Below are positions 1,167 to 8,091 of a stretch of DNA of 64,000 nucleotides, in pieces; position 1 is the stretch's first letter; every line of letters begins with the position of its first letter. A program made the translations under genes and the position numbers. The DNA is from Verrucomicrobia bacterium LW23 (lineage in GTDB: Bacteria; Verrucomicrobiota; Verrucomicrobiia; Methylacidiphilales; UBA1321), in contig QAZA01000050.1 in the NCBI GenBank assembly GCA_003054695.1, positions 124,001 through 188,000 on the forward strand, in the 5' to 3' direction. A model generated the notes under the pieces. That model saw nothing but the letters and a program-made list of their open reading frames with translations. It was not told where the DNA came from and did no database searches.

Positions 1167-1757
1167 TTACAGTAATCCATCCAGCGCCATATTCAGCTTC
1201 AGAACGTTCACGCCCGGCCGGCCGAGCACGCCGAACAACGTGCCGTCGTCGGTGTTGGCGCTGATGAGTCCCCTCACCTGATCCTCAGTGAGGTTGCGGG
1301 CGCGGGCCACGCGCGGCGCCTGCAGCTCCGCATTGGCCATGCTGATGTGAGGATCCAGGCCGCTGCCGGAGGCCGTCACGGCGTCGGCGGGAATCCGCGC
1401 GTCGGCGGCCAGGCCGTTGGCTTTGCGGTACGCCGCCACGCGATCGCGGATCTGATCCGCCAGCTTTTGCGACGTGGGGCCGAGGTTGGAGCCGCCGGAG
1501 CCGGCGGCATCGTACCCGCTGGCACCGGCGGCGCTGGGGCGGGGGTGAAAGTATTGCTCGCCGGAGAAGTTCTGCCCCAGGAGGGAGGAACCGCGGATCG
1601 TCCCGGACTTGTCGACGATAAGGCTGCCATTGGCCTTGTCCGCAAACACGGCCTGGCCAATCGCCCATATTGCCAGGGGGTACACGCCGCACAGCAGTAC
1701 GGCAAAGACAAACGTAACGGCCAGCGCGGCACGGGTTTGGAGGAGTAGCGTTTTCAT
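1167..1757 (-). CDS. kdpC: Potassium-transporting ATPase subunit KdpC
   Basis: 196 residues, normal length for the family. KdpC is the single-span subunit that stabilises the KdpB-KdpA complex and raises its nucleotide affinity. The sequence shows one N-terminal membrane helix (about residues 10-34) followed by a periplasmic domain with typical motifs: GSLI near 44, GSSLLGQNFS and YFHPRPSAAG around 56-76, SGSGLDPHIS around 130 and a C-terminal NVLKLN. It lies between kdpB and kdpD on the same strand, so it is probably co-transcribed with them. Confidence 0.97.
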   Translation of the reverse strand: MKTLLLQTRAALAVTFVFAVLLCGVYPLAIWAIGQAVFADKANGSLIVDKSGTIRGSSLLGQNFSGEQYFHPRPSAAGASGYDAAGSGGSNLGPTSQKLADQIRDRVAAYRKANGLAADARIPADAVTASGSGLDPHISMANAELQAPRVARARNLTEDQVRGLISANTDDGTLFGVLGRPGVNVLKLNMALDGLL

Positions 1758-1845
1758 AGGAAGTCAGATGTCGGATTTCGATGTGAGAGGTCCGTTCGGG
1801 AATCAGGGAAGTTCCGGAAATCAGGTAAGTACAAGGAAGCGCGCG

Positions 1846-3927
1846 TTACACCAGCCCCAGCGCCACAATGGCCATGTCGATTGCCTTGATGCCGAGGAAC
1901 GGCAGGATCAGGCCGCCAAGGCCGAAGATCAGCAGATTGCGCTGCAGCACCGCCACGGCACCCAGCGGCCGGTACTGCACACCGCGCAACGCCAGGGGAA
2001 TCAACGCGATGATGATCAGCGCGTTGAAGATGACGGCGCTGAGGATGGCGCTTTGCGGCGACGCCAGGTGCATCACGTTCAGCGGCACAATGGCCGGGAA
2101 CGTCGCCATCAGCAAGGCGGGGATAATCGCAAAGTACTTCGCCACGTCGTTGGCGATGCTGAACGTCGTGAGCGAGCCGCGCGTCATCAGCAGCTGCTTG
2201 CCTATCTCCACTATCTCGATGAGCTTGGTGGGATTGCTGTCGAGATCCACCATATTGCCCGCCTCGCGGGCCGCCTGGGTGCCGGTGTTCATCGCCACAC
2301 CCACGTCGGCCTGGGCCAGAGCGGGGGCGTCGTTGGTGCCATCGCCGGTCATCGCCACCAGGTGGCCTTCGGCCTGCTCCAGGCGGATGCGGCGCAGCTT
2401 GTCCTCGGGCGTGGCCTGGGCCATAAAGTCATCGACGCCGGCCTCGGCGGCTATGGCTGCGGCGGTCAGCGGGTTATCGCCGGTAATCATCACGGTGCGG
2501 ATGCCCATCTTGCGCAGCTGCGCAAACCGCTCCTTGATGCCGCCTTTTACCACGTCCTTCAGCTCCACCACGCCAAGCACGCGCCGGCGCTCGGCCACCA
2601 CCAGCGGCGTGCGCCCGGCGCGGGAGGCCGCTTCGACGGCCTTGCTTACTTCGTCGGGGAATTCGCCGCCATTGGACTGCACGTAAGCCTTCACGGAGTC
2701 CGCAGCGCCTTTGCGGATGCTGCGGACGGTCGTGGCCGCCGGAGCGCCGCCGCCCTTGCCGGCGCTGCCGTCCTCGGCCAAAAAGTCCACGCCGCTCATG
2801 CGCGTTTGCGCCGTAAAGGGGACGAACACGGCGTGGGGCTCGGCAAGCTCCCGGGCACGGATGTTGAACTTCTCCTTGGCAAGCACCACAATGCTGCGGC
2901 CCTCCGGCGTTTCGTCCGCCAGCGAGGCCAGTTGGGCGGCATCGGCCAATTGGTGCTCCGTAACGCCGGGCGCGGGGGTAAAGGCGCTGGCCATACGGTT
3001 GCCGATGGTGATGGTGCCGGTCTTGTCGAGCAGCAGTACGTCCACGTCGCCCGCAGCCTCCACGGCGCGGCCGCTGGTGGCCATAACATTGCGGCGGATC
3101 AGCCGGTCGATGCCGCTGATGCCAATAGCGCTAAGCAGGCCGCCAATGGTGGTGGGGATAAGGCACACCAGCAGGGCAATCAGCACAGGGATGGAGAAAT
3201 CCACACCCGCGTAGGCGCCAAACGGCTTAAGCGTAACGGCAACCAGCAGGAAGATCAGCGTGAGGGCGGAGAGCAGAATCGTCAGCGCAATCTCGTTCGG
3301 CGTCTTTTGCCGGCGAGCGCCCTCCACCATGGAGATCATGCGATCCAGGAACGTGTTGCCTTTTTCCGCGGTGATGCGGATGACGATGCGATCGCTGATG
3401 ACTTTGGTGCCACCCGTCACGGCGCTGCGATCACCGCCGCTTTCGCGGATGACCGGCGCGGACTCGCCTGTAATCGCGGCTTCGTCCACGCTGGCGATAC
3501 CGTCGATCACCTCGCCGTCCGACGGGATGACATCGCCGGCCTCGCACACGACCAGGTCGTCCTTGTCCAGCTGCGATGCGGCCACCAGGGTTTCCACGCC
3601 ATTGTGGATGCGGCGTGCCATGGTGTCGCGGCGCGCCTTGCGAAGGCTGTCCGCCTGCGCCTTGCCGCGGCCCTCGGCCATCGCCTCCGCAAAGTTGGCA
3701 AACAGCACGGTAAACCACAGCCATATGGCCAGCTGGATCACAAAGCCCTGCCCGGCCGGCCCGGGCGAGGAGGTGAAGATGCTGACGGTGGTGAGCACCG
3801 CGCCGACCAGCGTGACAAACATGACGGGATTGCGGAACATGATCCGAGGGTCCAGCTTGCGAAAGGAATCGACAATGGCCGGCCCCATAATAGTCCAGTC
3901 GAAAAGAGACGGGGATTGATGAGACAT
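1846..3927 (-). CDS. kdpB: Potassium-transporting P-type ATPase subunit KdpB
   Basis: Catalytic P-type ATPase subunit of the Kdp pump, about 693 residues. It carries the phosphorylation motif DKTGTIT (near residue 300), an actuator TGES motif, TGDNPLTA in the P domain and the hinge [11 protein letters not shown], followed by the KdpB-specific segment [13 protein letters not shown] chose the ATG at 3927 ([11 protein letters not shown]) rather than the upstream TTG at 3945, because the first six residues of the longer frame are not family-like. It is flanked by kdpA and kdpC and hydrolyses ATP to drive K+ uptake through KdpA. A 780-codon frame on the opposite strand is only its shadow. Confidence 0.98.
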
Positions 3928-3995
3928 AGGGAGAAGCAGGAACAAGGTTGAATGCGCTGCGGAAAAGGCGAGAAGAGAGTGAGAGCCAGTAGCGC

Positions 3996-5747
3996 TCAGT
4001 ACATCCGGCCCTGCAGGTTAAGGAAGTGCTCGACGATCGGGCCGAGGGCCAGCGCGGGCAGGAAGTTCAGCGCCCCCACCAGCAGGACGCATCCCACCAG
4101 CAGCACCACAAAGGTAGCGCCTGAGACAGGGAAGGTGCCGGGGCTGGGTGGCGCCACTTTCTTGCGCACCAGCGATCCCGCCAGGGCCAGGATTGGCACA
4201 ATCATCAGGAAGCGGCCGATAAGCATCGCAAGGCCCAGCGTAAGGTTGTAGCGGATATCGCCGTTAGCCGGCGTGGCCGTAAGCCCCGCAAACGCGCTGC
4301 CGTTGTTGCCCGTGGCGGAGCTGTAGGCGTAGAGCATCTCGCTAAAGCCGTGCGGGCCGCTGTTGTTGAGCCCGGCGGTGCCCCACTCGCTGGCGCTTGC
4401 CCAGGCCGTAAAGCCCAGGATGGACCCGCACAGCACCAGCAGCGAAAGCATCGCCATCTTCACGTCGTACGCCCCTATCTTCTTGCCCAGGTACTCCGGC
4501 GTGCGGCCCACCATGAGGCCGGCGATAAACACCGCCAGGATGACGAAGACCAGCATGCCGTACAGGCCTGCGCCCACGCCGCCAATCACCACTTCGCCCA
4601 GCTCGATCATAAAGAGCGGGACGAGGCCGCCCAGTGCCGTAAAGGAATCGTGCATGGCATTGACCGCCCCGCACGACGCACTGGTGGTAATGACCGCAAA
4701 CAGCGAGGACGCAAAGATCCCAAAGCGCACTTCCTTGCCCTCCATGTTGCCGTCCGCCACCGCCAGCCCCAGCGCCTGGTGCAAGGGATTGCCGCGCGAT
4801 TCCGCCGCCCCGCAGACGACGACGGCCGCGACAAACATCACCATCATGGCCGCCCACACCGCCCAGCCGTGACCGGGGTTGCGGGTGATCCGGCCCAGGT
4901 AATACGTCAGAGCGCTGCCAATGGCAAAGATGGAGAGCATCTGCACAAAGTTGGAGAGCGGCGTGGGATTCTCATACGGATGCGCCGCGTTGGTGTTATA
5001 GAAGCCGCCGCCATTGGTGCCCAGCATCTTGATCGCCACTTGCGACGCCACCGGGCCCTGGGCGATCGACTGCGTCTCCACACTCGTGCCGTCCGCAAGG
5101 CGGATGGGCTCCACGAGTCTGGCCGTGTCGTAAGGGCGGAAATTCTGGGGCACGCCCTGCGACACAAGAAACACCGCAAACACCACGCACACAGGCAGTA
5201 GCAGATAGTAAGCGATACGCACCAGGTCCACCCAGAAGTTACCCAGCGCCTCGCCGGATTGCCACGCGATGCCGCGCACCAGCGCAGCCGCAATGGCAAT
5301 GCCCACCGCCGCCGACATGAAGTTCTGCAGGGTTAATGCCACCATCTGAGAGAAATACGACATGGTGGATTCACCAACATAGCTTTGCCAATTGGTATTG
5401 GTGGTAAAGCTGACAGCCGTGTTAAATGCCAAAGCCTCGCCAAGCGCAGGAAGGCCCTGCGGGTTAAGCGGTAATACATGCTGCAGGCGCAATATAGCGT
5501 ACGTAAATACACACGAAACAGCGCTCACCAGCAGCATGGCCATCGTATACCTCTTCCAGTCGTACTCTTCATTATGATCCACACCCATCAGTCGATAGGT
5601 AAGAAGCTCCAAAGGCCGCACCACGGGATCCAGAAACGTCTTGCCATTGGCATCCAGCACCTGGACGAGGTAGAGGCCCAGCGGCCGGGTAATCAGAGCC
5701 ACGAGGCCCACATATAACGCGAAGGAAAACCAGTCAACGTTGCTCAT
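3996..5747 (-). CDS. kdpA: Potassium-transporting ATPase K+-channel subunit KdpA
   Basis: 583 residues, a full-length K+-translocating subunit of the superfamily of K+ transporters. Around ten membrane helices are visible. The four selectivity-filter regions can be recognised: [11 protein letters not shown], the [13 protein letters not shown] block, [13 protein letters not shown] and the GNNGSAFAG block. It begins 20 bases after the kdpF stop codon and precedes kdpB by about 70 bases, giving the standard F-A-B-C-D order. Confidence 0.98.
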
Positions 5748-5766
5748 TGCAGTATCCGGATAAAAG

Positions 5767-5850
5767 CTAAAACTTCTCCGGCCATATCATGGCTGCGAAA
5801 AGATAAATCACCAGCATCAGGGAGATGCCACCTACAACCAAAGTCTCCAT
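5767..5850 (-). CDS. kdpF: KdpF, 27-residue accessory membrane subunit
   Basis: Short gene missed by length filters. The minus-strand ATG at 5850 opens a frame that begins METLVVGGIS, continues as one hydrophobic helix (LMLVIYLFAAM) and ends IWPEKF before a TAG at 5767-5769. Length, single helix and the terminal WPEKF-type motif match KdpF, which binds and stabilises the KdpABC complex. It is the first gene of the operon, 20 bases before kdpA. No strong Shine-Dalgarno sequence is evident upstream. Confidence 0.9.
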   Translation of the reverse strand: METLVVGGISLMLVIYLFAAMIWPEKF

Positions 5851-6290
5851 AGTATGGGTAATAGAATAAGGTTAAATTCTATCGCAGAATTGAACGTAAA
5901 ACCCACTGAAAGCAAAGAATCCAAGGATAACAGCAAGGAAGATAGCGTCGAACATATAAGGTTGGTAATGACAGGAAATGTCACTCCCCACATTATTCGG
6001 CAACACCCCACCCTCCGCTAATTAAAAGGTCCGCCGTAAGTATTAAAAACGTATTAAAACAGCATGACACAATCGGAAGCGCCACAGGCGCGAAAGCCTG
6101 AAGACTCTTTCCATGGCTTACGCCCTGGGCTTTAGGCTTTCGCGCCTGTAGCCGGGCAAAGTCCCGACGGATTTTCACGCAACGGTCGCAACGGGGGAAT
6201 GGATCAATCGTCAAAGCAGGCCTGTTGGCAAGCTTTGGATTCTCATTCGAATCCTCTGTCTTAATGATTACACCTGTACGTAAACCGCTC
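5851..6290. other. 440-base intergenic region upstream of kdpF
   Basis: No convincing gene. A 152-codon minus frame here has low-complexity, non-family sequence and overlaps the cyclase gene end, so I reject it. The AT-richer part nearest kdpF (about 5851-6060) should hold the kdp promoter and KdpE-responsive site, but I could not assign boxes with confidence. The central part holds the inverted repeat listed separately. Confidence 0.6.
6084..6149. repeat. Perfect 16-bp inverted repeat with inner stem
   Basis: The arm ACAGGCGCGAAAGCCT (6084-6099) is exactly complementary to AGGCTTTCGCGCCTGT (6134-6149). Inside the 34-base loop a second stem is possible (CCATGGC at 6111-6117 with GCCCTGG at 6122-6128, 6 of 7 pairs). 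No U-tract follows on either strand, so it is not a classic intrinsic terminator. It resembles interspersed extragenic palindromes (my recollection of PVC-type genomes), but copy number cannot be seen from one window. Confidence 0.7.
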
Positions 6291-7637
6291 CTAATGCGGC
6301 ATCGCGTTTTCAGCGCCCTGTGCAAAGCCGGCGAGCATGGAGCGCCGGATGATGGCGAAGACTTCGCACCAGCTTTCCCTGACGCGGGGGATAAAGGCCT
6401 CGCCCAGGTGCAGGGCAAGCGCGTGGAGCAGGGCGGCCTCGGCGTAGTCAAAGTGCTCCTCGCGTACGCCGTAGCCCGCGTGGCGCTGGCCCAGCATGCG
6501 CAGCTCCGGCGTGATGCTGGGGAGGTTGTGCAGGCCCTGCACGGTAAGGGCGATCATGCGCACCAGCATAATGCGCATCGTTTTCATCTCCACGCGCACA
6601 AAGAGGGGCTCCAGCTCCGGCTTCAGGGCAAACATGTGCTCGTAAAAGTCGATGGCAAAGGCGTCCGCCTTCGGGGCCAGCAGCTCAAAGGTGGACTGGA
6701 CGAGATAAAGCGGGTCGCTGTCCAGATAGCCCAGGATCTCGTACATGCGAACGCTTCCGCTGCGACCGCGAAGCTCCGTCTCCAGCGTGCGACCGATCTC
6801 CAGGGAGGGCAGGATCGGCGCGACAAGGTCCTCCGAGGCGAGCAGCCGGGTGCCGTAGATCTTGTTGGAGGCCTCGATTCTGCTGGCCGTGTTCACGGCG
6901 TCGCCGATCACCGTAAAGCTCATCCTGGAGGGATGCCCCTGATGACCCACGAGAACCGGCCCGTAGTGGATGCCAATCCGCGGCTCAAACGAAAAGCCGA
7001 ACTGGTTTTGCAGGTTCTCGTTCAGCGCCTGCGCGGCGGAGACCATCCGCAGGGCGGCCCGCACAATGCGGCGGGCGCATTCGTCGTGCGTGGGGTTATC
7101 CAGCCCAAACAGGGCAAACATGCCGTCGCCCAGGTATTTGTCGATAGTACCGTGGTTGGCGAGGATGGGATCCCCCAGCAGCTTGAAAAAGCGGTTGAGC
7201 GAGTGCACCACATCGTACGCCAGGTGGCCCTGCGTAATGGCGGTAAAGTTGCTGATATCGCAAAAGAGCAGCCCCAGCCGCCGCTCCTCCGCAACCGGCT
7301 GCCCGCTGTTGGGGCCCAGCGCGAGGTTTGCTACCAGGGTGTCCTGAACCAGCCGGCGCACCGTGGCGGGGCCGGCTGGCCGGCTTTGGCACGCCAGACG
7401 CACGTTGTCCGCCCAGGGGTAGTGCGCGGCAAGCGCGGCCTCCATCGGGGTGCGCGGTCCAAAGGAGTCCAGGCCCTCGACGACCAGCACCCGGCACGTG
7501 GAGCACCGCGCCTGCCCGGCACAGGCGTGAAAATGATGCAGGCCTGCGGCAAGAGAGGCGTCGAGCAGGGTTTGCTCCTGCGGATTGCAGTGGACGACAG
7601 TAACGCTGTCATCTTCCAAAAATGCAATCTTCGACAT
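6291..7637 (-). CDS. [2Fe-2S] ferredoxin / nucleotide cyclase / globin fusion protein
   Basis: 448 residues from the ATG at 7637 (MSKIAFLEDD); in-frame upstream ATGs give a non-conserved extension. Residues 1-95 form a ferredoxin domain with Cys39-x5-Cys45-x2-Cys48-x34-Cys83, the adrenodoxin-type spacing. Residues 120-300 are a class III adenylate/guanylate cyclase domain with metal-binding Asp127 (CDISNF) and Asp171 (GDGMFALFG) and the IGDAVNTASR block providing Asn249 and Arg253. Residues 310-440 match the globin part of flavohaemoglobins: FYEHMF with Tyr332 at the expected B10 position, NLPSITPEL, and RHAGYGV with His386 as the likely haem ligand. The E-helix is diverged. It lacks membrane segments and is probably cytoplasmic, making cAMP or cGMP under redox and/or O2/NO control. 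Which nucleotide is made is not evident. Confidence 0.88.
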   Translation of the reverse strand: MSKIAFLEDDSVTVVHCNPQEQTLLDASLAAGLHHFHACAGQARCSTCRVLVVEGLDSFGPRTPMEAALAAHYPWADNVRLACQSRPAGPATVRRLVQDTLVANLALGPNSGQPVAEERRLGLLFCDISNFTAITQGHLAYDVVHSLNRFFKLLGDPILANHGTIDKYLGDGMFALFGLDNPTHDECARRIVRAALRMVSAAQALNENLQNQFGFSFEPRIGIHYGPVLVGHQGHPSRMSFTVIGDAVNTASRIEASNKIYGTRLLASEDLVAPILPSLEIGRTLETELRGRSGSVRMYEILGYLDSDPLYLVQSTFELLAPKADAFAIDFYEHMFALKPELEPLFVRVEMKTMRIMLVRMIALTVQGLHNLPSITPELRMLGQRHAGYGVREEHFDYAEAALLHALALHLGEAFIPRVRESWCEVFAIIRRSMLAGFAQGAENAMPH

Positions 7638-8091
7638 GGAGCAGTTTGGAAACGGATGCATGGATGGCCTGGTCGTCCTGTCCTGATGGCTGTTGGTTGG
7701 TTGGGAATGAGAATCGGCGCACCTCTGTCGCCCACAAGAAGAAGCCACGCGCTTTCACCGCCCTTTCACCGCGCCTGTTTCGCATTGTGGCACCGAGGTC
7801 GCGCCAGCCGGCTAAACCCGGCGGGGATGCTCGCACAACGTATCCCCCCAGGTGTAGCGTGACAGCCTTCCCACTCGTCCACGGTAAACATTGTTACTTC
7901 CTCGCCGGGAAGCTGAACAAGATCTTTCTTTATGAAATCCGAATCCAAGCGCTTTTCGAAAGGCACGTTAAGCAAACGCTCCTTCTTGTGCAGGACGGCG
8001 AGTGGAACTGCTTAAGCGCGATAGCCTTTGGCCGCATTCTGGGGCGCCCCTGGTACGAAACGCACCGCCCGTACGTCATCATCATCGCCCC
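7638..8091. other. 454-base region with no convincing gene
   Basis: Frames in this gap (a 172-codon plus frame, a 69-codon minus frame starting with TTG) have no family-like features and I do not call them. GC-rich complementary segments around 7800-7860 (CCGGCTAAACCCGG and neighbours) may fold, but no clear regulatory RNA is recognisable. The cyclase promoter should lie near 7640-7760 on the minus strand. Confidence 0.5.

Follow-up and report, generated by a model that had tools for sequence, protein, structure and literature searches.

We found that Verrucomicrobia bacterium LW23 encodes a 448-amino-acid protein in which a ferredoxin domain, a class III nucleotide cyclase and a globin follow one another in a single chain, and which is best read as a redox- and haem-regulated cyclase. 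With moderate confidence, we regard it as a soluble relative of the adenylate cyclase CyaC, in which a C-terminal globin would replace the membrane di-haem sensor, so that haem and iron-sulfur cluster would control the output of cAMP. The protein is likely to signal O2, NO or redox state through cAMP. Sensing of O2 and NO in bacteria is known mainly from haem-PAS proteins, globin-coupled sensors and Fe-S regulators; here, one cyclase lies between a [2Fe-2S] ferredoxin and a globin of the F family.

The gene was identified in the window, i.e. the whole stretch of 64,000 nucleotides of LW23 DNA that was analysed, and its reading frame is intact (Table 1). It lies on the minus strand, the original prediction having given no strand. 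The plus-strand frame over the same positions is only a long antisense frame, as is usual in high-GC DNA. An upstream GTG start at 7748, which would add 37 residues, is disfavoured, because the ATG at 7637 corresponds to the start of the close homologue L055 (69% identical). All three domains score above the curated cut-offs of Pfam, so they are not chance matches, and they stand in the order proposed in the original prediction, whose listed residues (Cys39-x5-Cys45-x2-Cys48-x34-Cys83, Asp127, Asp171, Asn249, Arg253, Tyr332 and His386) are all found at the positions given there. An AlphaFold2 model of the full protein, built from 33 sequences, reached a mean pLDDT of 88; the sole stretch of very low confidence (pLDDT below 50) covers residues 100-114.

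Table 1. Gene and domain coordinates in the window, with whole-protein Pfam E-values and further evidence
Feature	Residues	Window positions	Strand	Evidence
Whole gene, Fer2-cyclase-globin	448 aa	6291..7637	minus	ORF; stop codon 6291-6293
Fer2 [2Fe-2S] ferredoxin domain	11-87	7377..7607	minus	Pfam PF00111 (Fer2, residues 11-87), E 2.5e-10; Cys39/45/48/83
Ferredoxin-cyclase linker	88-113	7299..7376	minus	low model confidence at residues 100-114
Class III nucleotide cyclase domain	114-306	6720..7298	minus	Pfam PF00211 (Guanylate_cyc, residues 120-259), E 1.2e-18; VIA-align; residue table
Flavohaemoglobin/HGbI-type globin	310-440	6318..6710	minus	Pfam PF00042 (Globin, residues 330-430), E 7.7e-10; 3s1i E 8.9e-16; Z 21

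The N-terminal domain carries the Cys-x5-Cys-x2-Cys motif and the fourth cysteine of a [2Fe-2S] ferredoxin inside the Fer2 match, and all four cysteines are conserved in every relative that spans them. It weakly matches ISC-type ferredoxin. Whole-protein Foldseek and VIA lists were filled by the cyclase domain and were uninformative here, so that the assignment of the ferredoxin fold rests on Pfam and the conserved cysteines. Loading with a [2Fe-2S] cluster is predicted on this basis.

The globin assignment, which the original prediction had left to a profile search of residues 310-440, is backed by the Pfam match and by several further comparisons. Searched alone with phmmer, the domain is nearest in sequence to Hell's Gate globin I (3s1i), followed by Vitreoscilla haemoglobin, with flavohaemoglobins weaker. 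Its separate AlphaFold2 model (pLDDT 88) aligns by VIA to neuroglobin over 132 residues (Z 21.6, rmsd 1.3) and to 3s1i over 130 residues (Z 21.0, rmsd 1.5). It is the sole PF00042 globin in its own genome; a 133-amino-acid globin in another genome of the same order (G043) is, by our reading, Hell's Gate globin I from Methylacidiphilum infernorum, which agrees with the alignment to 3s1i. In established globin numbering, alignments to 3s1i and to the family place Tyr332 at B10, Phe346 at CD1, Met354 at E7 and the proximal His386 at F8. A PF00042 fold that carries Phe at CD1 and His at F8 identifies an F-family globin, for which haem loading is predicted.

This globin resembles Hell's Gate globin I, Vitreoscilla haemoglobin and flavohaemoglobin in its family and in Tyr B10, Phe CD1 and His F8, but differs from them in being fused to a cyclase and in having methionine in place of glutamine at E7. 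The latter residue (window 6576-6578) is methionine in the three globin-type members from the window's class, glutamine in Bacteroidota and Bradyrhizobium, and lysine in Thioploca. Haem ligand chemistry may therefore differ within the family, and Met354 could possibly mean a different ligand choice or ligation of the haem by methionine. With globin-coupled sensors the protein shares the fusion of a globin sensing domain to a signalling domain. Unlike their N-terminal S-family globin, however, the globin here is of the F family and C-terminal, and the Pfam scan of the protein gave no Protoglobin (S-family) match up to E 1.

Two different signals feeding one cyclase, as put forward in the original prediction, are not the only way to read such a chain. 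Ferredoxin and globin might instead form a single electron relay, in which the ferredoxin passes electrons to the globin haem, O2 or NO is turned over and the cyclase reads the resulting internal redox state, an alternative that we consider unlikely. In flavohaemoglobin, a fused reductase, whose flavin domain passes on electrons, keeps the globin reduced, and the globin studied here has flavohaemoprotein as its best NCBIfam match; Pfam detected no such FAD/NAD(P)H reductase domain behind it, and its fold stops about 8 residues short of the C-terminus. A ferredoxin is present in every globin-type protein that covers both chain ends, and haem b and [2Fe-2S] also share one chain in CyaC (PMC10463352), both of which would suit a relay. 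It is at odds with the position of ferredoxin and globin at opposite ends, with the cyclase between them, and with the lack of a conserved reductase partner gene beside family members. Its specific form, in which the cluster would reduce the haem of a Tyr-B10/Met-E7 globin, O2 or NO would re-oxidise it and the redox balance would set the cyclase, appears rather improbable. If true, such an internal-electron-chain cyclase would be a signalling enzyme driven by the turnover of its own globin.

The original prediction had also suggested that the same domain order be sought in other genomes, and it is indeed present in several phyla: the architecture already exists in public genomes and is not unique to LW23. 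A single-sequence contig scan gave no confirmed relative, and a three-sequence profile was needed to find them. Within the window's class, a genome of another family (G646) holds a full-length copy with 69% identity over residues 2-441. In G245, a cyclase-globin fragment runs into the end of its contig; across the 384 class and 388 phylum genomes sampled, further Fer2-cyclase or cyclase-globin relatives were limited to G105, G245 and G016. The profile scan of named genomes matched 15 loci over ferredoxin, cyclase and globin, namely in Thioploca, two Bradyrhizobium species, two Saprospiraceae, Echinicola (Cyclobacteriaceae) and nine Flavobacteriaceae. Cyclase and globin were detected in each of the 17 proteins of this architecture that were scanned, and Fer2 in 16 of them, the exception being truncated by a contig end.

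This distribution also bears on whether the globin regulates anything. The sensor could be the ferredoxin, with the globin serving as an accessory, structural or haem-binding, devoid of regulatory effect. This might be suggested by the variable distal pocket and by Fer2-cyclases that lack a globin in three separate cases: L044 and L015, both from the window's class, and Hymenobacter L155. The globin is evidently dispensable for the Fer2-cyclase core, as these three proteins indicate. Yet neither Phe346 (CD1) nor His386 (F8) varies across 17 proteins of distant phyla. This speaks for selection to keep haem binding and makes a mere accessory role quite improbable. L044 is 57% identical to the window protein over the Fer2-cyclase part, and tblastn found no globin remnant beside either L044 or L015.

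Where these proteins belong among class III cyclases was addressed with a tree of the cyclase domain (62 rows; quick search, no bootstrap), in which L015 forms a long branch. Globin-type, soluble and membrane-type Fer2-cyclases all fall on one side of a branch with an SH-aLRT of 99, which separates them from 20 further class III cyclases. The membrane-type proteins form one group (SH-aLRT 95), and a large alphaproteobacterial group of Fer2-cyclases without globin has a hydrophobic N-terminal region. L044 falls together with L055 and the window protein (98), a position that suggests loss of its globin. The tree does not settle the deep branching order inside the fusion clade, so the globin was likely, though not provably, fused only once.

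The clade also includes a protein that has been characterised. Among the tblastn relatives is the annotated cyaC of Sinorhizobium meliloti (38% identity over residues 23-301), whose product is described as an adenylate cyclase that has six helices, two b haems and a [2Fe-2S] cluster and whose activity follows the redox state of the quinone pool (PMC10463352). Its redox regulation acts via haem b, and a [2Fe-2S] cluster is carried (PMC10463352, citing Wissig 2019). The window protein is of this type, with Fer2 directly before a cyclase of the same clade, to which the membrane-type CyaC relatives sampled belong as well. It shares with S. meliloti CyaC the Fer2-cyclase core, the four cysteines, the Lys/Thr/Asp/Asn/Arg active site and the combination of haem with [2Fe-2S], both predicted here, in one chain. 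The two differ in where the haem sits: in CyaC it lies in an N-terminal membrane domain that reads the quinone pool, whereas the globin here is C-terminal and the protein shows no membrane helices. Fer2 is preceded by residues 1-10 only, the six-helix di-haem-b membrane domain is absent, and a Kyte-Doolittle scan found no hydrophobic segments in the window protein versus several in S. meliloti CyaC.

A second point of comparison is HemAC-Lm of Leishmania major, a globin-coupled adenylate cyclase that depends on O2 (Santara et al. 2013, via PMC4534343). Compared by description only, it likewise combines a soluble globin and an adenylate cyclase in one chain and makes cAMP on O2, but it is eukaryotic and the review mentions no ferredoxin domain (PMC4534343). 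CyaC, with haem, [2Fe-2S] and cyclase, and HemAC-Lm, with globin and cyclase, are thus characterised neighbours on either side. The original prediction named no characterised case; this stands for the full trio and needs qualifying by these two partial precedents. Our full-text literature searches returned no paper describing ferredoxin, cyclase and globin in one chain, with a mention in subscription globin surveys being possible, and a search on ferredoxin-fused class III cyclases returned general ferredoxin papers only.

The cyclase domain itself has a complete active site of the class III type. It combines metal-binding Asp127 and Asp171, adenine-pocket Lys167 and Thr242, and transition-state Asn249 and Arg253 with a PF00211 match and VIA-align Z scores of about 26 (26.6 to Pseudomonas aeruginosa CyaB, 26.5 to Spirulina CyaC), and the aspartates, Asn249 and Arg253 are conserved in all globin-type relatives aligned. 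The Lys/Thr pair is that of CyaC-type adenylate cyclases: Lys167 and Thr242 align to lysine and threonine at exactly positions 410 and 484 of S. meliloti CyaC, the substrate-site residues changed in its K410A T484A mutant (PMC10463352). This pair points to ATP as the predicted substrate. The Bacteroidota orthologues (L062, L064-L073 and L075) have glutamine at the Lys167 position and alanine, serine, cysteine or threonine at the Thr242 position, and their nucleotide product may differ from cAMP. Such drift of specificity in the family could hint at cGMP or another cyclic nucleotide in LW23 too, but this is very unlikely in a protein with the same Lys/Thr pair as the adenylate cyclase of S. meliloti.

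The reading we favour, a soluble CyaC relative under haem and cluster control, would work as follows. The protein would be soluble and probably form a homodimer, as a class III adenylate cyclase from the same Fer2-cyclase clade as S. meliloti CyaC, with the active site formed between the two cyclase domains of the dimer. The N-terminal [2Fe-2S] ferredoxin would report the redox state to the cyclase via a short linker, while the C-terminal b-type-haem globin, standing in for the di-haem-b anchor of CyaC, would bind O2 (or NO or CO). Ligand binding or haem oxidation in the globin would then change cyclase activity and hence cAMP, which may act through CRP-type cNMP-binding proteins, several of which are encoded in the same genome. 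Dimerisation, the direction of regulation and the physiological ligand are proposals of this model. Three observations weigh against it: the E7 residue, methionine here, is glutamine in most relatives; some Fer2-cyclases do without a globin; and gene neighbours differ across the family. As the same core occurs joined to a membrane di-haem domain, joined to a globin or lacking both, the family represents a natural test set for Fer2 control of class III cyclases, and for whether haem and cluster feed in separately or act as a single relay.

The strongest independent evidence for a role in O2 sensing or respiration comes from the genomic setting in Bradyrhizobium, which fits such a role. In B. 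altum (L063:3518-7287 onward), cydA and cydB are followed after 24 bp by the cyclase gene and then by fixN/fixP-type cbb3 oxidase genes, and gene clustering places the B. oropedii copy (L074) in the same cyd/fix setting. Beyond these two species, we sought and did not find a gene neighbourhood common to the whole family. In Seonamhaeicola sediminis (L073:7306-10680), a TPR-histidine kinase-receiver-cyclase hybrid adjoins the globin-type cyclase.

In the window, a kdpFABC potassium-ATPase operon (1167-5850; kdpA, B and C by NCBIfam, kdpF read by eye at 5767-5850) lies directly downstream of the cyclase gene on the same strand. This neighbour offers no link to O2, and we claim no tie of the cyclase to potassium. 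The cyclase gene lies about 440 bp upstream of kdpF, and between them is a long hairpin at 6081-6152 (ACAGGCGCGAAAGCCT ... AGGCTTTCGCGCCTGT). Its arm has about 64 copies in the genome compared to 12 for a reversed control, which marks it as a dispersed REP-like repeat. A riboswitch at this place was rejected, because Rfam gave only sub-threshold matches to animal and viral miRNAs and the hairpin is a genome-wide repeat.

The LW23 genome has 13 cyclase-domain matches and eight matches to cNMP-binding domains. Two cyclase loci, G000:C9:37210-37686 and G000:C10:111823-112299, have identical scores and 904-amino-acid frames on different contigs, and represent either a recent duplication or an assembly repeat.
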